Below, piece by piece: positions 14,697 to 31,388 of a stretch of DNA of 36,505 nt; positions within the stretch are counted from its first letter, which is position 1, and each line of letters begins with the position of its first letter. This DNA is from a virus: positions 1 through 36,505 of IMG/VR virus record IMGVR_UViG_3300007735_000679. One strand, 5' to 3'. A program made the translations under genes and the position numbers. A model generated the notes under the pieces. That model was not told the origin of the DNA. It saw nothing but the letters and a program-made list of their open reading frames with translations, and did not search any database.

Positions 14697-15038
14697 TCAC
14701 CTTTTATTTGATTCAAATAAATAAGTTGATCCAGCCGTACCGGAATAATAATTGCCATTCTGAATTTTTGTTCCATTTGATCCATAGAACAAATATCCTG
14801 TTTTTGTCACAATTTCGCCATTGCCGTAATAAACATTACCGCAAGATGAATAGCACCCGCTCGGCGTGAGTTTTAATATGCCACTATCAACCGCCAATCC
14901 ATTTTGCGTGATTGCAACGCCTCGCCCACCGCTAAATACGGCACTTCCGGAGTTGTATACCCCTCCGGCAAATTCATCCAAATCTTCAGCCATCACCGGT
15001 GCAACCAGCACCGCCATTGCTATTAGTATGTTTTTCAT
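14697..15038 (-). CDS. Small exported protein on the reverse strand
   Basis: 113 residues from ATG 15038. The N-terminus MKNILIAMAVLVAPVMAEDL is a clear signal peptide with a likely cleavage site after AMA-like VMA. The mature part is Gly/Tyr/Ser-rich with repeating short beta units (GGVYNSGSAVFSGGRGVAI; GYLFYGSNGTKIQNGNYY) and one Cys pair (CYSSC). The frame stays open further upstream but those starts would lose the signal peptide. It is convergent with the muramidase gene with no gap, and head-to-head with a nuclease gene. It is probably an independently expressed cargo gene acting in the envelope; the function is unknown. Confidence 0.75.
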   Translation of the reverse strand: MKNILIAMAVLVAPVMAEDLDEFAGGVYNSGSAVFSGGRGVAITQNGLAVDSGILKLTPSGCYSSCGNVYYGNGEIVTKTGYLFYGSNGTKIQNGNYYSGTAGSTYLFESNKR

Positions 15039-15044
15039 GTAAAA

Positions 15045-15073
15045 AGTCTGCGTGTTGAAACCAACCATGTCAA
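15045..15073 (-). promoter_or_regulatory. Putative promoter for the reverse-strand exported protein
   Basis: On the reverse strand a perfect -35 box TTGACA (15073-15068) is followed after 17 bases by a weak -10 (CAGACT, 15050-15045). The predicted transcript start would fall at or next to the ATG at 15038, and no Shine-Dalgarno is visible, so the message could be leaderless. Only the -35 is strong, so this is tentative. Confidence 0.35.
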
Positions 15074-15456
15074 TTAAGAAATTATCAAGTCGCCAGATTG
15101 GTGCGGTTGGTGTGGCTAGGGTTGCTGGAGCCTTATTCCGCAATGGCTACAGCGTGCTCACGCCGATGGAAGATTTTTCTGGGTATGATTTGGTGGCCGA
15201 AAGGGGCGGGAAGTTTGTCCGCATTCAGGTAAAGACTACCACAAAACCAGAAGGCGAGAAGTTGTATTATCGATTTATGACCAGCGTTGGAAGCGAAGGC
15301 AAGACAGCCTACACCAAGGACAAGGTTGACATCTTGGTCTGCTGGGCCATGGACGAGGACTTGTTTTGGATTATTAAACCACAGGATTGTCGCGGACCAA
15401 CCAAGAAACTTTACCCTAAAACTGGTTCCTCATGGCGCATAATCAGCGATCTTTGA
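15067..15456 (+). CDS. PD-(D/E)XK family endonuclease-like protein
   Basis: 129 residues from ATG 15067 (a GTG at 15052 is also in frame). The pattern GAVGVARVAGALFRNGYSVL, then SGYDLVAERGGKFVRIQVKT, gives the nuclease core Asp41 and Gln54-x-Lys56, as in the small PD(D/E)XK endonucleases related to intron or archaeal nucleases (PF11645-like). The usual Glu of the first helix (GExG) is Val here (GAVG). It is the first gene of the forward nucleic-acid module, so recombination, repair or homing-like roles are possible. Confidence 0.7.
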   Translation: MSIKKLSSRQIGAVGVARVAGALFRNGYSVLTPMEDFSGYDLVAERGGKFVRIQVKTTTKPEGEKLYYRFMTSVGSEGKTAYTKDKVDILVCWAMDEDLFWIIKPQDCRGPTKKLYPKTGSSWRIISDL

Positions 15457-18214: not shown

Positions 18215-18357
18215 AGCTTGCTATTGCATGGATCTGCTACCGGATCGGTGATTTCATCAGCATCACGATCATGCGGTACGGATATGGTTATTCACTTTAC
18301 AACAAGTTAATGCTTCTCAGCAGCGATCTGGACGATAAAGGAGTTATCTGGAAATGA
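18211..18357 (+). CDS. Conserved small phage protein (48 aa)
   Basis: 48 residues from ATG 18211 in an ATGA overlap. The sequence includes CYRIGDFISITIMRY and YNKLMLLSSDLDDKGVIWK. The pattern 'YRxGDxxS...YNxLMxxSxDLDxxGxIWK' is common in tiny proteins of many siphoviruses and podoviruses, so I accept it as real. The N-terminal half could lie on a membrane. Role unknown. Confidence 0.65.
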   Translation: MKLAIAWICYRIGDFISITIMRYGYGYSLYNKLMLLSSDLDDKGVIWK

Positions 18358-19034
18358 AGAAAGCATTAGTCACGCAGGCATTCGGGGATAAGTGGCACAA
18401 GGTTCTGGAGATAACCAAACCGCGCATGGAGTCATATTGCAAGCGACACAAGATTGATTTGATTTCGTTTGAAAAGCCATTGGTAGAGCCGGTACAATAC
18501 AGCAAGCTGGCAATTGGGAACATCATTGCGACCAAGGGTTATGAGCAAGTCACGTTCTTGGATTGTGATGTGCTTGTTGCTGAAGATTGCGATGAAATTG
18601 GTGATTTGCTGGAGCCGGATTGCTCGTTTATGGCGTTTGACGAAGGCCAATACCTTGACAGAAGGATTGGGTTGAAGGGATTGGCTGATGCATTTGGTTT
18701 TATCAAGGGATGGGAACCTACTTTTTACTTTAACACCGGAGTGTTTGTAATCACGCCAATGGCGGTTGGCGCACTAAGCCAACCCCCGATTGGATTGTTC
18801 CCCAACCACTTCGCCGAGCAGACATGGATGAATCTGCAACTGCACCTATGGTCCACGGCGACTTGCAACCTTGACCCAGCCTATAACTGCATGACCAGTG
18901 TTGAGGAACACTTCGGGCTGGATCGTTACAAGGACGCGCAGATTATTCACTATGCAGGGCAAAGTGCGGATCTTGATAGGCTGATGAAAGATATTAAGGC
19001 AGACGATGCCAAACTGAAAGAACTTGGTCGATGA
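18354..19034 (+). CDS. Glycosyltransferase, GT8-like (GT-A fold)
   Basis: 226 residues. The DxD metal/nucleotide-sugar motif is FLDCDVLV (Asp70, Asp72), preceded by YSKLAIGNIIATKGYEQV, and followed by FYFNTGVFVI and, near the end, IIHYAGQ, which is the layout of GT8-type retaining transferases. The acceptor is unknown: it could be modified phage DNA, virion proteins or host surface glycans. It lies in the same forward operon as a 2OG oxygenase, a C5 cytosine methyltransferase and a second glycosyltransferase. Confidence 0.75.
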   Translation: MKKALVTQAFGDKWHKVLEITKPRMESYCKRHKIDLISFEKPLVEPVQYSKLAIGNIIATKGYEQVTFLDCDVLVAEDCDEIGDLLEPDCSFMAFDEGQYLDRRIGLKGLADAFGFIKGWEPTFYFNTGVFVITPMAVGALSQPPIGLFPNHFAEQTWMNLQLHLWSTATCNLDPAYNCMTSVEEHFGLDRYKDAQIIHYAGQSADLDRLMKDIKADDAKLKELGR

Positions 19035-19714: not shown

Positions 19715-19941
19715 GCCATATTAAGATCCTTGCCGAGCGCAAGGTACAAATGTACGAGATTGATGTTGACGTGGACGAAGAGACAAGAAGAAAAGTATGC
19801 TATGCCGCATGGTGCGAAATATCCAAGGACGATGATGCTCTGTTCAACTACGGATTCAACCAAGCCTTAAAACGATTCATTCAAACCAAAGGAAAGAAAT
19901 GCACCAAGAAAAATTTAAACAAAAAACGCTCACGGCGGTAA
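19702..19941 (+). CDS. Hypothetical acidic-to-basic small protein
   Basis: 79 residues from ATG 19702, overlapping the membrane protein by 13 bases. It has an acidic centre (YEIDVDVDEETRRKVCYAAW) and a Lys/Arg tail. The frame is also open upstream, but starting there would swallow the membrane protein, so I prefer this start. Function unknown. Confidence 0.55.
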   Translation: MDGLGHIKILAERKVQMYEIDVDVDEETRRKVCYAAWCEISKDDDALFNYGFNQALKRFIQTKGKKCTKKNLNKKRSRR

Positions 19942-20474
19942 CTGTACCCAAGGTTTTAACCTCCTCGCAGTGCGAGTTGGTGATCCATGATGCCGACAAG
20001 ATCGGCATGAAGCGCGCTCCGGTATTAGCCAAGGATGGCACTCATGTAAAAAGCTGGAACCGAACCTGCGCCTCATGCTGGGTTCCAAAGTCCAGCCTGT
20101 TTGAATGGCTGTATAGCTATGTGGCCGCAGTCACAGACGAAGTTAACAATGAGCATTATAACTTTGACATTACCGATATGCAACAACTGCAAGTCTTGCG
20201 CTATCGCCCAGGGCAATGGTTTCGCTGGCATTTTGATGCTATTGAAACGCAGGGCGATATTCGCAAGATGACGATGGTTATCAATCTCTCGCCAGCCAAC
20301 GGATACATTGGCGGTGGATTGCAGGTGGATGGCAACTGGCACAACCATCAGCGCGCAAGAGAGCAGGGATCGGCAAGCTTCTTTCCGTCTTGGATAAAGC
20401 ATCGCGCCAAGGCTCCGATATGGGGGACAAGATGGGTGCTGGTGGCATGGATCACTGGACCGGCATGGCGATGA
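19899..20474 (+). CDS. 2-oxoglutarate-Fe(II) oxygenase, PKHD/prolyl-hydroxylase-like
   Basis: 191 residues, overlapping the previous gene by 43 bases. Iron ligands His111-x-Asp113 (WHFD) and His168 (SWIKHRA), and the 2OG-binding Arg178 (GTRW), are all in place. The surrounding text (LRYRPGQWFRWHFD, MTMVINLSP, GSASFFPSWIKHRAKAP) is closest to the PKHD/prolyl-4-hydroxylase branch, not clearly TET/JBP. It hydroxylates a protein or nucleic-acid substrate that cannot be told from sequence. Neighbouring glycosyltransferases and methyltransferase make DNA or glycan modification worth testing. Confidence 0.82.
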   Translation: MHQEKFKQKTLTAVTVPKVLTSSQCELVIHDADKIGMKRAPVLAKDGTHVKSWNRTCASCWVPKSSLFEWLYSYVAAVTDEVNNEHYNFDITDMQQLQVLRYRPGQWFRWHFDAIETQGDIRKMTMVINLSPANGYIGGGLQVDGNWHNHQRAREQGSASFFPSWIKHRAKAPIWGTRWVLVAWITGPAWR

Positions 20475-21538: not shown

Positions 21539-21863
21539 CCCTATCCATGTGTTGACCGCCAGGGTCAACAGCCTGGAGCAGGCCACCCGCCGACTTGAGG
21601 CGGCAAGGTTGGAGCTGCACGCAAAGATGGCCATGATGATGGAAATGAAATCCATCCCAGAAACTAAAGAACTTAAAATATCCGAATCGGTGAAGATGGA
21701 CGGCAATTCACCAGATGCGGTGGACAAGCGATACCGCATCTGGCAGGTGCTTTACGAGAATGGCTACACGGTGTCGTCCATCGCCCGAGCATGGAAGACG
21801 GACCGTGGTTCGATCCAGCACGCCAAGAAGCAGGGATGGAGGTCGAGGTATTTGAGTAAATGA
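21516..21863 (+). CDS. HTH DNA-binding protein with coiled coil
   Basis: 115 residues from ATG 21516, with AAGGAG just upstream. Residues about 10-45 form a coiled coil (VNSLEQATRRLEAARLELHA). Residues about 75-112 hold a helix-turn-helix (YENGYTVSSIARAWKTDRGS then IQHAKKQGWRSRY). It probably binds DNA as a dimer. ATGA overlap with the methyltransferase gene hints that it may regulate or cooperate with it. Confidence 0.68.
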   Translation: MNTLDQINPIHVLTARVNSLEQATRRLEAARLELHAKMAMMMEMKSIPETKELKISESVKMDGNSPDAVDKRYRIWQVLYENGYTVSSIARAWKTDRGSIQHAKKQGWRSRYLSK

Positions 21864-22876
21864 ATGAAAAAACACACCTCGACTTATTCAGCGGGATCGG
21901 TGGATTTGCCTTGGCCGCAAGATGGAACGGATACAGAACTGTTGGGTTCTGCGACTGCGAACCCTACGCCCAAGCCGTCCTCAAAAAACACTGGCCGGAA
22001 GTCCCGATCCACAAAGACATACGCGAGATACGAGGCGACGTATACGCAGGAGTCACTCTTCTCACAGGAGGATTCCCCTGCCAACCATTCTCCGTTGCCG
22101 GGGAGCGAAGAGGCAAGGATGATAACCGCTACCTCTGGCCGGAAATGCTCCGAGTCATACGCGAGGCCAAGCCGCGTTGGATCATTGGTGAGAATGTTGC
22201 TGGCATCGTCAACATGGCACTCGACCAAGTGCATTCTGACCTGGAAGGTGAAGGTTACGAAGTCGAAACGCTCATTATTCCAGCTTGCGCCGTCGATGCC
22301 CCGCACAGAAGGGACAGATGTTGGATTGTGGCTAACTCCAAATGCAATGGACAGTCTTCCGGCTCGGGACGAGGAGGCGTTGAGGAAGCAGTACGAATCG
22401 AACAGGTCTGGGAGAACAACCCATTCAACTCTTCGGGAACAGGTTGCGTATCCTCCCCCAAGCATGATGTGGCCGACTCCATCAGCATGCCCGAGGGGGG
22501 CGCATACAGGAAAGATCAGCGGAAGTGTGAGCGAGGACGGAAAGAGCAGGGTATCTGCCAACGGAACCAAGTGGGGAGCAACCCTCCAGACGGCAGTGAA
22601 GATGTGGCCGACTCCGACCCAGAGGGATGGGAAGGGTGGCTACAAGGGCGGCCGGATAAGGAATGGGAAGATATCCAAAGACACCTTGGACGTTGCGGTT
22701 CAGCATACGGACAATCAGGGGAAGCAATCTGGCTCCCTGAACCCAACATGGGTCGAGTGGCTCATGGGGTACCCAACCGGACACACCGCCTTAAGGGATT
22801 GGGCAACGCCATCGTCCCGCAAGTCGCGTCGGAAATCATTAAATGCATAAATTTGCTGGAAAAATCCATCCAATAA
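21860..22876 (+). CDS. C5 cytosine-specific DNA methyltransferase
   Basis: 338 residues. Canonical motifs: I at LDLFSGIGGF (8-17), IV at GGFPCQPFS with catalytic Cys74, VI at GENV (110-113), VIII at HRRDR (149-153), and a late RVAHGVPNR then RLKGLGNAIVPQVA for motifs IX-X. The target-recognition region (about 160-295) is short, polar and low in hydrophobics. It transfers a methyl group from SAM to cytosine. The specificity cannot be read from sequence. No cognate restriction enzyme is visible, so an orphan, anti-restriction or modification-starting role is likely. Its second frame is open for almost the full length. Confidence 0.9.
   Translation: MNEKTHLDLFSGIGGFALAARWNGYRTVGFCDCEPYAQAVLKKHWPEVPIHKDIREIRGDVYAGVTLLTGGFPCQPFSVAGERRGKDDNRYLWPEMLRVIREAKPRWIIGENVAGIVNMALDQVHSDLEGEGYEVETLIIPACAVDAPHRRDRCWIVANSKCNGQSSGSGRGGVEEAVRIEQVWENNPFNSSGTGCVSSPKHDVADSISMPEGGAYRKDQRKCERGRKEQGICQRNQVGSNPPDGSEDVADSDPEGWEGWLQGRPDKEWEDIQRHLGRCGSAYGQSGEAIWLPEPNMGRVAHGVPNRTHRLKGLGNAIVPQVASEIIKCINLLEKSIQ
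21864..22850 (+). CDS. Overlapping open frame inside the methyltransferase gene
   Basis: A 328-residue frame, shifted +1 from the methyltransferase, starts 4 bases after its ATG and runs nearly to its end. The first ~65 residues look like a shadow, but then come EDSPANHSPLPGSEEARMIT, ILTWKVKVTKSKRSLFQLAP, SMPRTEGTDVGLWLTPNAMD, two WPTP segments and GSLNPTWVEWLMGYPTGHTA. These resemble segments I remember from phage methyltransferase-associated proteins. Part of the match (EWLMGYP) could be an automatic echo of the conserved VAHGVP motif in the other frame. Translation is unproven. Confidence 0.4.
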   Translation: MKKHTSTYSAGSVDLPWPQDGTDTELLGSATANPTPKPSSKNTGRKSRSTKTYARYEATYTQESLFSQEDSPANHSPLPGSEEARMITATSGRKCSESYARPSRVGSLVRMLLASSTWHSTKCILTWKVKVTKSKRSLFQLAPSMPRTEGTDVGLWLTPNAMDSLPARDEEALRKQYESNRSGRTTHSTLREQVAYPPPSMMWPTPSACPRGAHTGKISGSVSEDGKSRVSANGTKWGATLQTAVKMWPTPTQRDGKGGYKGGRIRNGKISKDTLDVAVQHTDNQGKQSGSLNPTWVEWLMGYPTGHTALRDWATPSSRKSRRKSLNA

Positions 22877-23133
22877 CCAAAGTCATTCCGGATGATGACA
22901 CAACCATCATCATGAATGGATTTGACGATGCTCTTTTGGGCGCGTCATTTATAGGCGACAAATACCATGCCGTTTACTCGGTGGAATGGGTAATCAAGTC
23001 GCTTATGAAAAGAAACCGATGGAACAGGCAGGATGCTATTGATTTCGCGTATTACAACGTGATTTCAAATAATTATTCTGGCCAAATGCCGATTTTTGTA
23101 GATATGATGCCGAACATAAGGAGAACCAAATGA
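22843..23133 (+). CDS. Conserved phage protein of unknown function
   Basis: 96 residues, overlapping the methyltransferase end by 34 bases. Core pattern: GFDDALLGASFIGDKYHAVY, then VIKSLMKRNRWNRQDAIDFA with YYNVIS and a final PIFVDMM. The 'DDAxxG...YxxxxxIxxLMxx...xxAxxFxxxN' arrangement is common in small proteins of phage replication modules, always of unknown function. ATGA coupling to the following glycosyltransferase. Confidence 0.65.
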   Translation: MHKFAGKIHPITKVIPDDDTTIIMNGFDDALLGASFIGDKYHAVYSVEWVIKSLMKRNRWNRQDAIDFAYYNVISNNYSGQMPIFVDMMPNIRRTK

Positions 23134-24254
23134 AAATATGGACAAACAACACAAATCAAATCCATAAGGTCGATGATAATATGCTTCACGTCCGAAACAC
23201 CTACGTGCTTCCGGATGAGTTGACCGGACCCACCTGGGACGATTCGATCCCTTGCCCGCACAAGATCAAGCCATACTACAAAGGCCGCGCAACGGGCGGA
23301 GCCACGGCGGTCTACCGCTCCGGAGCAATCGGGGATGCGGTCATAGCAACGGCCTTCGTACATTACCTTGTCCAAGAGTCTGGTGGTGTAGTGGACGTTT
23401 ACGCACCCGCTCGTAACCTTCCTCTTTACGCTGGGCTAGGCGCAAAGCTGTGGCCGCTGCCCTGCTCATTGGAGGCTTGGGACAGCTACGATGCCCATCT
23501 GCCAACGGACGACCTATTCAGCGGACAGGTTGGTAACACCAAGCTGGGGACAGGTCCGGGCAACTGCTACAAGCGGATCTACGAATGGATGGGTGTTTGG
23601 GATGAGAAGACCATGGCCAAGTATTGCCGCCCCTATCTTTACCTAATCGACCCAGATCACAACGAGCTAAAGGAACTAGGAAAATGGCCGCTGCCTGTGC
23701 CTTACTTCGCCTACCATGTATCGTCAAGCGGTCCGACCCGCACCTACCCGCCCAAGATGGGTCAGGACGCGGTGCTGGCGTTGCTGGAAGCCCACCCACA
23801 CCATCACGCTGTCATTATTGGGCTGGATAACAGCAACAACTTCAAAGTTGACCATCCTAGGGTGATCGACCTGTTCAACACAACCAAACAGATCCGCTCG
23901 CTGTTCCCGATAATCGCCAATGCAGACTTTGTGGTGGCTCCTGATAGCAGTGTCAACCACATAGCAGCGGGGCTAGACACGGCCTGCGTGTCGTTGTGGG
24001 GAAGCTACGACCCGATGGATCGGGTGACCTACTACCCTAAGAACGTGTCGGTGTTCAAGCCAGACACCTGTCCACACGCGCCGTGCCGTCCGCATGCGGG
24101 TCTACCGCAGGCGAAGTGCAAGGATGCTAGCAACAAGACCAAGGGAACACAATACTTCTGCAATGCCCTTCGCAACATCACAGCGGAGGACATTGTGGAG
24201 GCTTCGCACAAGGCGAGGGAGTTGGAGGATAAATCACATGAGGAGAAGAAATGA
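23130..24254 (+). CDS. Glycosyltransferase family 9-like (heptosyltransferase type)
   Basis: 374 residues. The N-terminal Rossmann part has SGAIGDAVIATAFVHYL (about 64-80), matching the GxGD...T loop of ADP-heptose:LPS transferases. The C-terminal half has ADFVVAPDSSVNHIAAGLD and VSLWGSYDP, the usual donor-side signature (DSxxxHxAxAL...FG). It therefore adds a sugar from a nucleotide-sugar donor. It may alter the host envelope, or glycosylate modified DNA or virion proteins. It is ATGA-coupled to a small membrane protein. Confidence 0.8.
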   Translation: MKIWTNNTNQIHKVDDNMLHVRNTYVLPDELTGPTWDDSIPCPHKIKPYYKGRATGGATAVYRSGAIGDAVIATAFVHYLVQESGGVVDVYAPARNLPLYAGLGAKLWPLPCSLEAWDSYDAHLPTDDLFSGQVGNTKLGTGPGNCYKRIYEWMGVWDEKTMAKYCRPYLYLIDPDHNELKELGKWPLPVPYFAYHVSSSGPTRTYPPKMGQDAVLALLEAHPHHHAVIIGLDNSNNFKVDHPRVIDLFNTTKQIRSLFPIIANADFVVAPDSSVNHIAAGLDTACVSLWGSYDPMDRVTYYPKNVSVFKPDTCPHAPCRPHAGLPQAKCKDASNKTKGTQYFCNALRNITAEDIVEASHKARELEDKSHEEKK

Positions 24255-27287: not shown

Positions 27288-27470
27288 ATGCGCCAGAATG
27301 CCTCAAAATCGAGCAAGGATGCCCCTAGAAAGCGTCTTCATGGCGCAGTAGATAGGAAACAGCGGGCTAACGATAAAAACGAATATAGCGTCAAATTTAA
27401 GGTAGATGCCCAACCGATGCCAGATATGCCATTAGGCAACCGGGCATGTTGCTGTTGGATAGGAAAGTAA
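27288..27470 (+). CDS. Doubtful small basic ORF
   Basis: 60 residues starting 5 bases after the previous stop. The N-terminus is Lys/Arg/Ser-rich, and the end is Pro/Met-rich with three consecutive Cys (NRACCCWIGK). No Shine-Dalgarno is evident and no family is recognised. It is kept because it continues the operon direction with little gap; chance is a real alternative. Confidence 0.3.
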   Translation: MRQNASKSSKDAPRKRLHGAVDRKQRANDKNEYSVKFKVDAQPMPDMPLGNRACCCWIGK

Positions 27471-27603
27471 TATATCCTTAACTTTTGATTGCTTCAGATT
27501 TTCAAATTTGGGGCAAAAAAAATTTCAAATTTCTGGCTTCTGGCGCGTCCCAAGTTCCTCCTTATAGGGACAATTTTAATTTGAATATATAAGTAAAAAT
27601 AAA

Positions 27604-27631
27604 AAAAAATTAAACGGTTTAATTGAACCGT
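27604..27631 (-). terminator. Terminator for the reverse-strand island
   Basis: Arms AACGGTT (27612-27618) and AACCGTT (27625-27631) form a 7-bp stem. Read on the reverse strand, the hairpin is followed directly by a T-rich run (complement of the A-run at 27595-27611). That fits a factor-independent terminator for the leftward genes. The stem is only moderately GC-rich. Confidence 0.5.
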
Positions 27632-27698
27632 TCGGGTGCCGGTTAAAATTATGTTTAAAAACTTTTAAATGAAAGTATCAATTCGCACTGTGCCGGGG

Positions 27699-27780
27699 AA
27701 ACCATAAAACCAAAACGCTAAAAAGTTTTTTTAATTTTGACCTACCGGGCAAACCATAAAACCAAAACGCTAAAAAGTTT
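27699..27780 (+). repeat. Two direct 30-base repeats, 52 bases apart
   Basis: Identical 30-base units at 27699-27728 and 27751-27780 (AAACCATAAAACC..., ending CTAAAAAGTTT), each preceded by a CCGGG-type flank. Their 26-base core recurs with 22 of 26 matches at 30649-30674 beside the small-terminase gene. Both are in the same orientation. They lie just outside the reverse-strand island. Confidence 0.75.
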
Positions 27781-27781
27781 C

Positions 27782-28009
27782 TTAATTCTGCCCGCCCTGG
27801 TGTGCTGCGCTTGCCGGATTTTCTATCAGAATCCTTGTCATGTCGGATACAAAGGAGAAATACTTTTCTCCAAAAATATCCGCTAACCCCCTTTGCGTTT
27901 TACCATAATACGTCTCCGGACGTACTTGGAACCTACCACAGGCGGAAAGGAATGGATTTGTTATCCATACCCCCCGCTTTTCATCTTTGAATCCATCTTT
28001 TATGTGCAT
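27782..28009 (-). CDS. Hypothetical protein of the amidoligase island (75 aa)
   Basis: 75 residues from ATG 28009 on the reverse strand, preceded by a clear GGAGG (complement of 28014-28018). It reads MHIKDGFKDEKRGVWITNPF, then LSACGRFQVRPETYYG and IFGEKYFSFVSDMTRI. A 'WxTNPFLSxCGRFxVxPExYYG' core looks conserved in style but I cannot name it. It is the last gene of the island, before the terminator. Possibly an island substrate or partner. Confidence 0.6.
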   Translation of the reverse strand: MHIKDGFKDEKRGVWITNPFLSACGRFQVRPETYYGKTQRGLADIFGEKYFSFVSDMTRILIENPASAAHQGGQN

Positions 28010-28061
28010 GGAACCTCCACTTTTACTTTGATTAGGCAAACCCTATCGGGTCAAACCTTTG

Positions 28062-28085
28062 CGCCCCCCATGCTATAAGGGGGCG
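28062..28085 (-). repeat. Strong GC hairpin between island genes
   Basis: CGCCCCC (28062-28068) and GGGGGCG (28079-28085) form a perfect 7-bp stem with a 10-base loop. It lies between the small membrane peptide gene and the last island gene. No T-run follows in either direction, so it is more likely an RNA-processing or stabilising element than a terminator. Confidence 0.5.
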
Positions 28086-28096
28086 ACAAGGTTAGA

Positions 28097-28186
28097 CTAT
28101 TTTCTGTTATCCCAAAGCATCCAAACGAAAACCACGATCAAAACTCCCAAGATCAGTCCATGGGCAAATATTATCGGTGTATTCAT
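28097..28186 (-). CDS. Tiny membrane peptide (29 aa)
   Basis: 29 residues: MNTPIIFAHGLILGVLIVVF plus VWMLWDNRK, one membrane span with a charged end. Its ATG overlaps the previous stop (ATGA) on the reverse strand and AGGAGGATG is nearby, so translation is likely coupled. This could bring the island's products to the membrane; that is inference. Confidence 0.5.
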   Translation of the reverse strand: MNTPIIFAHGLILGVLIVVFVWMLWDNRK

Positions 28187-28320
28187 TCTTCATCCTCCTT
28201 TACGATGTGCCAATCTTTCCACTCCCCATCATTCCTCATAAGCCATTCATAGGCTATTTTGGATGATGGGAAGCCGGATTTTACGAGTTTCCCGTCTGAT
28301 TCTATTACATTCCAAATCAT
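28183..28320 (-). CDS. Small protein of the amidoligase island (45 aa)
   Basis: 45 residues, ATGA-coupled to the amidotransferase stop: MIWNVIESDGKLVKSGFPSS, then KIAYEWLMRNDGEWKDWHIV and an acidic end. A small beta-beta-alpha pattern with several Trp residues. The acidic end could be a modification target, but nothing proves it. Short coupled genes at both sides support coding. Confidence 0.6.
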   Translation of the reverse strand: MIWNVIESDGKLVKSGFPSSKIAYEWLMRNDGEWKDWHIVKEDEE

Positions 28321-29366
28321 GAGACTACCCCTTCCGGAATGTTTCTTTCCAATTCACCATCTTTGTATCCCTCCTCATATCCGGCTTGGTAGTTTTTATC
28401 TAGCGATGCGGGGGGTTTTGGTGCCCCAATCAAACCATCATCGCATCCGGACAAATAGCCATCCTCCCATGCTTCAGAGTTAGTATTTATTCCGGACTTT
28501 TTCTCGTAGTCGGGAAACAACTCTTTTTGGGATTTCGGTTCACCGGATGATGCCTTGGAGGATGTTGGCCAATACTCTCCGGTGTAATATCCGGAACCAT
28601 ATCCGGATGATCCCAAGGATAAAGAATCCTTCGATCCATAGGATCGTGAGGGCATAGGTTTGACGTGCTCCTTCTCAATTATCTCCCCATTCCGGCACGT
28701 TGTGGCCACGTCCGGTTTAAGCAACCAAGGCACATTCTTGGATGAATCAAAGATGGAAGCCAATTTCACAACGTCACTAAACGCTGTGCCTACTACCAGT
28801 CCTCCATTCACCAATGAGATATACAGATTGGGCGAACTATCTCTATAGATTGTTAAGGCACCATTCTTCCGGAGGATAAGGAGGCCAGCGTATCCGGTGT
28901 AATACTTGTGCAACTCCTTCCACCCCTTGCCAATCGTGAACGTATTAAACAAATCCTCAGAATCGCAAACACCAAGTTTTTTGCGCTTTTTTCCGGAGTA
29001 CGTCACGATGCCATTGTGAACTAGGGCAAGTTCCGAGTTTACGAACGGATGCGTATTTTCAACTCCAAGGGAATTGGTGGACGTTCTGCCATGGAAGATT
29101 CCCGCCGTACATGGCGCGATTTTTCCCCTAGCTTGGTATGGCTGGTCAACCAACCCGCTCCAATCCTTTGGATCGGGGTAATTGAATCCCGCCAAGCTTC
29201 CGGAGGTCAACCGGAGGGATGTGATTTCCTTAATATCCCCACCGGACAGAGCATATCCAAAACCATCTTTTTGATCCTTTAAGAGATCGCGTGACGTTTG
29301 GATGATCTCGCAGATTTTATCTTCCGATACTTTTTGACTAACTGTGAACCCTAATAATTTGCACAT
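28317..29366 (-). CDS. Class II glutamine amidotransferase (Ntn hydrolase)
   Basis: 349 residues, with AAGGAG 8 bases before the ATG. Cys2 is the expected N-terminal nucleophile after Met removal; HGRTST (92-97), NTHPF (104-108) and HNG (117-119), plus DSEDLF, are the glutamine-binding and oxyanion residues of the family. It would release ammonia from glutamine. Residues about 230-349 form a Ser/Gly/Tyr-rich tail with repeats DGYLSGCDDG and GYEEGYKDGE. The gene follows the amidoligase by 16 bases, so the two probably act on one peptide modification. The typical synthase domain is absent. Confidence 0.85.
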   Translation of the reverse strand: MCKLLGFTVSQKVSEDKICEIIQTSRDLLKDQKDGFGYALSGGDIKEITSLRLTSGSLAGFNYPDPKDWSGLVDQPYQARGKIAPCTAGIFHGRTSTNSLGVENTHPFVNSELALVHNGIVTYSGKKRKKLGVCDSEDLFNTFTIGKGWKELHKYYTGYAGLLILRKNGALTIYRDSSPNLYISLVNGGLVVGTAFSDVVKLASIFDSSKNVPWLLKPDVATTCRNGEIIEKEHVKPMPSRSYGSKDSLSLGSSGYGSGYYTGEYWPTSSKASSGEPKSQKELFPDYEKKSGINTNSEAWEDGYLSGCDDGLIGAPKPPASLDKNYQAGYEEGYKDGELERNIPEGVVS

Positions 29367-29382
29367 ATATGTTCTCCTTTAT

Positions 29383-30477
29383 TTAACTAATCGCCATTCC
29401 ATCGGTTAGATGGATATTATTTTCATTTACCAATTTTTCCCGCAATGCGTTTGCGTGATTGGAATTGAATTGCCGGAAACGTTTCCACACATAAAGCCGA
29501 AGACTATCCGGCATTGATTCCATGCGGATCAGGTTTTCGATGCTTACGGATGCATAATATCCTTCTGCCATATTTGCGATCCGATCTATTTCCGTGGAGT
29601 TTTGGATAAACTGACAGAGCTTAATCCAACCCAATATCTTCCAAAAATCCAACGTTCCGCCATGCAACCGGACTTCACAAGTCCGGTGTTTACGATAGGC
29701 GGGAATGTAATTTATCATCCGATACCTATCGGATGAAAACCGATATTTCCCGCTCTTGGGGATAGGATGGTTTTGCTGGCAGAATCTATTGGATAGGCGC
29801 GATGGCGGTACCAATTTGACCAATGCGGGAAGACATTTCACCAATCTTTTCGCCCGCTTGGTTGCTGTCACCTTGGAAATACCTCTTTGATCCAAGTGTA
29901 TATGCATCCCGCAGGTTTGGTTGACCTCACCGCCCATAGAAGAAAGCTTTTCAGTCACCTTCTTTAAGCTTTGGGGATTATCCGTACGCATCGTCAATTT
30001 GTACTCTCTTCCGGAGCCGGATTCATCGTTCTCACTTTGGTAAGTCACGGATGCATCTCCGGTGACTTCGACAAGGCAAGATGGCAAATCCCTTTGGCTT
30101 GGCGGGATATAGTCGGAATGGAAAACGCATTCCAATTCCACGGAAACCAAGTTTCCGGAAAACTTTTTGAAATACTTTTCCTTTAAGGATTCCTTCTCAA
30201 TTGGGTTACCCTTTAGAAGATACCGCGTTTGCCTCATGATATCCCTACCCTTGCGGATATGGAATTTCACGTTATCCGATCCGGCTCGTTGCATGAAACG
30301 TGAACGAATCGAAAAGGCATTTTGATCGTAAAGATCACCTAGGCCATGAAGTCCTAGGATACGCTTTGCCATGATGGTTTTACGCTCTTCCCGGTTCTTG
30401 CGATTATCTTGGGCGGTAATCACTTCCGCGCTACTAGTTGTGTTTTCCATGGGGTAACTTTGGGCGGTTTTTCCCAT
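29383..30477 (-). CDS. Amidoligase-family protein (PF12224-like)
   Basis: 364 residues from ATG 30477 (the frame is open to 30567; starts at 30450 and 30372 are also possible). Characteristic blocks: VSVELECVF, GDASV, CGMHIHLDQRG, and TCEVRLHGGTLDFWKILGWI, matching the glutamine-synthetase-like amidoligase family which forms amide or isopeptide bonds using ATP. About 65 extra N-terminal residues (including ENTTSSAEVITAQDNRKNRE) are less conserved and may be tag-like. Together with the class II amidotransferase it makes the known two-gene amidoligase module; the target is unknown. Confidence 0.82.
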   Translation of the reverse strand: MGKTAQSYPMENTTSSAEVITAQDNRKNREERKTIMAKRILGLHGLGDLYDQNAFSIRSRFMQRAGSDNVKFHIRKGRDIMRQTRYLLKGNPIEKESLKEKYFKKFSGNLVSVELECVFHSDYIPPSQRDLPSCLVEVTGDASVTYQSENDESGSGREYKLTMRTDNPQSLKKVTEKLSSMGGEVNQTCGMHIHLDQRGISKVTATKRAKRLVKCLPALVKLVPPSRLSNRFCQQNHPIPKSGKYRFSSDRYRMINYIPAYRKHRTCEVRLHGGTLDFWKILGWIKLCQFIQNSTEIDRIANMAEGYYASVSIENLIRMESMPDSLRLYVWKRFRQFNSNHANALREKLVNENNIHLTDGMAIS

Positions 30478-30580
30478 CCCGACAAGGTTTTTCTGCTGGA
30501 AAGGTGTGGTAGTTTTATTGGGGTATGGACTATCTAGGCACCTTATCAAAATCAATCGTAGGGGCATTTGCGGAAGATTT

Positions 30581-30603
30581 TTTTAAGAGTTACCCTCTTA
30601 AAA
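30581..30603. promoter_or_regulatory. Perfect 9-bp dyad between divergent genes
   Basis: TTTTAAGAG (30581-30589) and CTCTTAAAA (30595-30603) are perfect inverted repeats separated by 5 bases. The AT-rich stem is a poor terminator on either strand, while its position between two outward-facing genes suits an operator for a dimeric regulator. Confidence 0.4.
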
Positions 30604-30648
30604 CCTATTTTTACCCCAAAACCAATTCCCCCGGTAGGCAGTAAAAGA

Positions 30649-30674
30649 ATAAAACCAAAACCAAATAAAGTTTT
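30649..30674 (+). repeat. Third copy of the island-bracketing direct repeat
   Basis: The 26 bases match the core of the left copies (27704-27729) at 22 positions, in the same orientation: ATAAAACCAAAAC, then four or five different bases, then AAAGTTTT. It stands right before an ATG at 30675 in the terminase frame. Upstream, CCCGGTAG is the reverse complement of CTACCGGG found before the second left copy. Confidence 0.6.
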
Positions 30675-30710
30675 ATGGATTCGGCAGCAACTCCAGGGAG
30701 AGGTAGTGAT

Positions 30711-31388
30711 ATGAAAGAAAACCATGAAGAATCTTTGCAAATAGCCTTACCCGGAAGGAATCAAACCGGACGTCCTCCTACATATTCCAAAGAGATCATG
30801 GAAAAGGTTTGCGAGTATATCAGGAAAGGTTTGACCTATGATAAAGCGGGCGAAGTCCTAGGAATATCACCGAAAACTATCCAATCTTGGCAAAATAGGT
30901 ATCCCGCTTTCGCGGATGCTATAAAAAAGGCGCGGAGAGAGTTAGAAGTCTTCCTATTGGAATCAATTACCAATGCTGGTGAGAAATCATGGCAAGCGCG
31001 GGCATGGATGTTAGAGCGTAACTTTGGATACGCGCAACCCTCTGCGCGAGTGGATGTTAAGCAAGAAATTCAGCATGGACTTTCGCCAACCTTGGCCAAT
31101 CTTCTTGCCGGATATAATTCCAAAAAGGCACAAGTGATTGATTCAAAACAAATAGTAAAATCTGAATCGGAAGTAATTGAACTGCAAGATGTTAACTCTA
31201 CTAAATATAATAATCATTGTGCGGCAAATGATGCCCCGGCGGAAGGTGCCTTGGTTTTACAGAAAAGAAAACGTCATAAACCTATGAGACGCAAGAAGTT
31301 ACGCAAGGACACCACCACACCCGACCGGCAGCCCCCATCCGCTGATAAAAACGTTGATACCCCCCTAAGTAATTGCGACACAAAATAA
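30711..31388 (+). CDS. Terminase small subunit-like HTH protein
   Basis: 225 residues from ATG 30711, which has GGGAGAGG 8 bases upstream (an in-frame ATG at 30675 lacks one). Residues about 18-75 hold an HTH: RPPTYSKEIMEKVCEYIRKG, then LTYDKAGEVLGISPKTIQSW. A helical oligomerisation part follows (WQARAWMLERNFGYAQPSA), and the tail is strongly basic (KRKRHKPMRRKKLRKD). It should recognise packaging sites and load the large subunit encoded next. The C-terminal tail is longer than in compact small terminases. Confidence 0.78.
   Translation: MKENHEESLQIALPGRNQTGRPPTYSKEIMEKVCEYIRKGLTYDKAGEVLGISPKTIQSWQNRYPAFADAIKKARRELEVFLLESITNAGEKSWQARAWMLERNFGYAQPSARVDVKQEIQHGLSPTLANLLAGYNSKKAQVIDSKQIVKSESEVIELQDVNSTKYNNHCAANDAPAEGALVLQKRKRHKPMRRKKLRKDTTTPDRQPPSADKNVDTPLSNCDTK

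Follow-up and report, generated by a model that had tools for sequence, protein, structure and literature searches.

A putative amidoligase and glutamine amidotransferase gene pair as interchangeable cargo beside the terminase small-subunit gene of a freshwater-type phage

In podophages of the phiEco32/LUZ24/RIO-1 type, a gene for an amidoligase of family PF12224 lies near one for a class II glutamine amidotransferase (GATase), and the cassette to which they belong (ORFs 21–29 of UFV-P2, ORFs 40–47 of PSA-HP1), which includes the same enzyme classes as the locus described here, is presumed to have a non-structural role (PMC3890496, PMC5498523). In the related phage SU10, mass spectrometry detected a GATase, an ATP-grasp enzyme and a YtfP-type protein of the cassette, which appear among the early gene products (PMC4281155), and the same two families also occur together, with function unproven, in the marine OM43 phages MEP401 and MEP402 (PMC10580990). 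Superinfection exclusion through modification of the cell wall is a published guess for related cassettes that goes back to Iyer et al. 2009, as cited in PMC10580990 and PMC5498523. Phages of unrelated hosts repeatedly carry amidoligase/GATase cassettes, for which the literature that we found offers predictions only. The amidoligase adjoins a class II GATase in Arthrobacter phage Edmundo (gp97–gp98) and in the uncultured phage ctgrD200, and is separated from it by one small ORF in ctUh1700, also from an uncultured phage, in each case in the order seen in our sequence; the GATases of these three phages were assigned by profile, weakly so for Edmundo and ctgrD200, and the amidoligases of the latter two share 24–26% identity with ours over part of the protein. 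All three phages differ from ours in host and in the genome location of the pair.

We analyzed a 36,505-nt IMG/VR virus record (IMGVR_UViG_3300007735_000679; hereafter the window), a freshwater-type phage that encodes a terminase, a portal and a primase/helicase-like protein. Searches with the terminase gave hundreds of IMG/VR relatives but no near match among GenBank phages, where the portal had only a ~30% match. No integrase was noted among the window proteins inspected, Rfam and tRNA scans gave no matches, and in pattern scans promoter-like matches were not above shuffled sequence and terminator-like matches were ~1 sd above it. Other genes in the window encode a GT8 glycosyltransferase (18354–19034), a 2OG-Fe(II) oxygenase (19899–20474), a C5 cytosine methylase (21860–22876) and a GT9-type glycosyltransferase (23130–24254). 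Unlike the phiEco32/LUZ24/RIO-1 cassettes, the locus contains two enzyme genes only, situated by the terminase small-subunit gene (terS) in an exchange slot. The COOH-NH2 ligase PF14395 and the gamma-glutamyl cyclotransferase (GGCT) PF06094 were each found in 0 of 6 records (the window and five pair-bearing records, several of them incomplete), with positive controls matching in both searches, and no ATP-grasp ligase was recognized among the window proteins scanned. By analogy, the locus would work like the core of such a cassette rather than the full cassette; what it adds is a further member of a known, functionally predicted cassette type, in its simplest two-gene form. The features of the locus are as follows.

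About 27300–31350, no strand: block that appears exchanged (mosaic), comprising cargo slot and terS (blastn profile, 250-bp bins)
27693–27731 and 27745–27783: two 39-nt AT-rich direct repeats, ~52 nt apart, at the 3' end of the reverse operon
27782–28009, minus strand: 75-aa small ORF, of a family present in slots without the pair too (pN/pS 0.26, three sequences)
28097–28186, minus strand: 29-aa single-pass membrane peptide, MNTPIIFAHGLILGVLIVVFVWMLWDNRK (slot homologues; pN/pS 0.28)
28183–28320, minus strand: 45-aa soluble small protein (homologues in slots with and without the pair; pN/pS 0.39)
28317–29366, minus strand: predicted class II (Ntn-type) glutamine amidotransferase, 349 aa, catalytic Cys2 (residues, Foldseek; pN/pS 0.20)
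29383–30450, minus strand: Amidoligase_2 (PF12224), 355 aa (Pfam and PHROG matches, conserved start and motifs; pN/pS 0.30)
30500–30575, minus strand: conserved non-coding element, ATGCC...CCATACCCC..AAAATAGCACACC (DNA alignment of 9 loci)
30675–31388, plus strand: terS (PHROG search, terL survey)

Read along the minus strand, the order is amidoligase, amidotransferase, 45-aa ORF, 29-aa membrane peptide and 75-aa ORF; the two enzyme genes are separated by 16 nt (29367–29382), and the 45-aa gene overlaps the 3' end of the amidotransferase gene by 4 nt. The enzyme motifs, gene order, strand and 16-nt gap were as first described, and the description of the cluster as opposite to every neighbour holds locally but not for the whole window, which has another minus-strand ORF at 14697–15143. 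That ORF is isolated and has a signal-peptide-like start and no Pfam match; an internal Met (MKNILIAMAVLVAPVMAEDL...) as start would give a secreted protein of ~110 aa. All five reverse ORFs of the cluster showed pN/pS of 0.20–0.39, indicating purifying selection; they are therefore genes and not chance ORFs.

The first enzyme matched PF12224 above the curated cut-off (E=9e-12; 45.8 vs 22 bits) as well as PHROG 2443 'amidoligase' (E=2e-15), so that HMM search bore out the amidoligase identity that the original prediction had taken from the letters of the sequence. The protein carries E-x-E at 105/107, HxHxD at 183–187 and R261 within EVRLHGG, which we take to be the ExE, HxHxD and (E)xR motifs of Amidoligase_2, with the roles presumed for them in that family; E105, E107, H183, H185, D187 and R261 were invariant across 14 homologues with 42–62% identity to the window protein. 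Its structural model was poor (pLDDT 59), and a fold search with such a model gave no meaningful PDB match; a PDB sequence search likewise found nothing. The start codon is most likely at 30450, judging from an ATG kept in all relatives checked. Two other starts, 30567 (longest ORF) and 30477 (the one first proposed), were dropped, as the upstream extension, an open frame to 30567, contains stop codons or frameshifts in several of the relatives and is probably non-coding. The conserved element at 30500–30575, upstream of the gene, is likely a leader or promoter region.

Viral contigs gave no matches when scanned with the window amidoligase and GATase as single sequences, and relatives of the pair were reached via the terminase large subunit (terL) and then by profiles. 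The terL-anchored survey comprised 80 loci; in ten of them the pair, or as much of it as the contig still includes, lies on the reverse strand immediately upstream of terS. Profile scans yielded 16 amidoligase and 18 GATase loci, which fall into three lineages: that of the window; a second one with a diverged pair in the same slot (L113–L115; 46% identity to the window for the amidoligase and 59–60% for the GATase); and a third one in larger phages of 34–65 kb (L101–L104 and L116–L119; 42–43% and 48–49%, respectively). Wherever a homologous locus had sufficient flanking sequence, in all three lineages, both genes were present and adjacent, with the amidoligase first; together with the block profile described below, this neighbourhood survey upheld the original view that the pair is real and travels together as cargo. 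No match to the amidoligase profile was obtained in the bacterial genome contigs scanned. Bacillus and Porphyromonas phages in GenBank have an amidoligase without a recognized GATase neighbour, and no close relative of the window GATase was found among GenBank phages, which separates the window from the OM43 phages. A small protein (L116, 6096–6761, plus strand) with weak likeness to the ATP-dependent DNA ligase domain PF01068 and a KxNG motif is encoded ahead of the pair in the larger phages.

The amidotransferase gave no match above Pfam or NCBIfam cut-offs and a weak PHROG match; its similarity to GATase_6 (E=0.004; 17.6 bits vs a cut-off of 27) is sub-threshold in Pfam. We assigned it to the class II GATases by fold and residues, because the Pfam cut-off is a tool threshold and not a biochemical criterion; the class originally named thus fits in these two respects but not in profile score. 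The residues C2, R94 (the arginine of HGRxST), H106, H117-N118-G119 (HNG) and D135 (the aspartate of CDSED) were invariant in 13 homologues. An AlphaFold model of moderate confidence (pLDDT 62) matched the glutaminase domains of GlmS, PRPP amidotransferase (PurF) and EgtC in Foldseek (E ~1e-8, probability 1.0), and the sole match in a PDB sequence search was a weak one to GlmS. The C-terminus carries repeats of the GYxxGYxDG type. The protein is thus predicted to be an Ntn glutaminase that has a complete glutamine site and lacks a synthase domain of its own.

Since the sole constant partner of this glutaminase is the amidoligase, ammonia feed from one to the other is the most economical reading, and we infer such a transfer. 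We favour, at a probability of roughly 0.55, a minimal glutamine-fed two-enzyme cassette that forms amides. The amidotransferase would split glutamine, and the amidoligase, as an ATP-dependent ligase of the GS/GCS2 type, would be its synthase partner and activate a carboxylate with ATP; the released ammonia would then turn this carboxylate into an amide, or an amino acid would be ligated to it. The most likely product would be a host molecule whose modification aids takeover, blocks a defence or changes the wall. The main rival to this scheme rests, like the scheme itself, on family knowledge: in ergothioneine synthesis, EgtA (GCS2 family) and EgtC (class II GATase fold) attach and then remove a gamma-glutamyl group. 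By analogy, the phage amidoligase could add a gamma-glutamyl or amino-acyl group that an EgtC-like hydrolase, in place of an amidotransferase, later removes. EgtC was among the top PDB matches of the model, but GlmS and PRPP amidotransferase matched slightly better or equally, every glutamine-binding residue is kept, the EgtC-specific profile TIGR03442 scored far below its cut-off (10.6 vs 218.7 bits) and no ergothioneine genes were recognized here. Related phage cassettes contain a GGCT (PMC3890496, PMC5498523), and therefore point to gamma-glutamyl chemistry, but the window and the pair-bearing relatives tested yielded none. We regard a ligase followed by a de-blocking hydrolase as rather unlikely, and retain the glutamine-fed amide-forming cassette as the working interpretation.

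Comparison with pair-less phages by blastn (250-bp bins) revealed 73–84% nucleotide identity in the flank on the replication side and 87–92% on the terL side, but no detectable nucleotide similarity between ~27.3 and 31.35 kb; this ~4-kb block matched pair carriers only, at 66–76%. The extent originally given, 27782–30477, was therefore too narrow. The terS allele travels with the cassette, with ~57–62% identity to pair carriers vs ~30–47% to others, and these alignments are most simply read as a joint exchange of cassette and terS in a single block. The pair occupied 10 of 83 unique slots; of the 73 others, 39 contained an ArdC-like (PF08401 and PF18818), GP88 (PF17338) or DUF7227 (PF23872) protein, in every case on the reverse strand, and the 10 pair slots contained no such protein (hypergeometric estimate ~0.001, a figure that is descriptive only because the slot phages are related). 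Both of the two full-length ArdC proteins tested have ArdcN and a metallopeptidase domain; some of the short ArdC matches in the census are fragments and do not count as full ArdC genes. These distributions indicate that the amidoligase–GATase pair is exchangeable cargo of an accessory slot on the reverse strand by terS. A further slot ORF (L081, 2274–2822, minus strand) shows weak likeness to the central domain of the DNA polymerase III beta subunit (sliding clamp), at 22.9 vs 27 bits.

Occupancy of the same slot by ArdC is no proof of a common role. That the pair is a counter-defence alternative to ArdC, acting on a host defence component or on phage DNA by amidation or aminoacylation, is a tentative proposal that we consider improbable rather than probable; PADLOC models gave no match for the pair or for the 45-aa or 75-aa protein. 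Its narrower form, in which an amidated or aminoacylated base shields the phage DNA in place of ArdC, would agree with the presence of this anti-restriction factor in the same slot of sister phages and with phage 9g, where dG+ synthesis reportedly involves a GATase, but no deazaguanine or other base-building genes were recognized among the window genes scanned, and we judge such nucleotide modification quite unlikely. The locus occurs among matched phages that naturally carry or lack the pair, and this contrast, in a slot shared with ArdC, makes counter-defence and wall modification directly testable against each other.

The small genes were distributed differently from the enzymes. The 29-aa membrane peptide was found in 59 of 73 slots without the pair and in all 10 with it (69 of 83 slots overall, L002–L081 and L113–L115, whatever the cargo), and the 45-aa gene in 64 of 73 and 5 of 10, respectively; taken singly, the short-peptide profile matches behind these counts are weak (E up to 0.01), but every one is on the minus strand and their positions agree. 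In the larger-genome lineage, neither gene turned up beside the pair. The 29-aa peptide and the 45-aa gene are thus slot backbone and not pair-specific, and the peptide is a separate function of that backbone, possibly related to lysis or exclusion. The original prediction had joined the pair and the tiny genes into one self-contained system and had placed it at the envelope through the membrane peptide. A single strand with overlapping or near-adjacent ORFs would suit five reverse genes forming an envelope-targeted system with the peptide as anchor or substrate, but both small genes are present in most pair-less slots and were not seen beside the pair in larger phages, so that we consider such a system very improbable. 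On the slot census we reject an anchoring role of the peptide for the pair, and, with the peptide being slot backbone, the argument that it places the pair at the envelope fails. Small neighbour genes are accordingly not automatically partners.

This result also bears on modification of the cell wall or surface for superinfection exclusion, as proposed for phiEco32 and repeated for RIO-1-like and OM43 phages. These phages have the same enzyme classes (PMC5498523, PMC10580990), and glutamine-dependent amidation of peptidoglycan Glu is real elsewhere, by MurT/GatD (PMC3267633); but the 29-aa peptide, the sole local membrane link, is not tied to the pair, the COOH-NH2 ligase and GGCT of the full cassette did not turn up while their controls did, and the role is a prediction in the literature found. 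We hold wall or surface modification for exclusion to be possible though doubtful.

The two 39-nt direct repeats may act as signals for packaging or replication. As general recombination sites for cargo exchange they are unsupported, because their exact pattern occurred in the window and L031 only (L031, 5492–5579, for a similar pair). A weaker copy lies at 30638–30676, near the start of terS. In another phage of the survey (L039, 5437–5492), three iteron-like repeats spaced by 17 nt (CACACATGTGAAATATCCACAC) lie downstream of the slot, where the genes converge.
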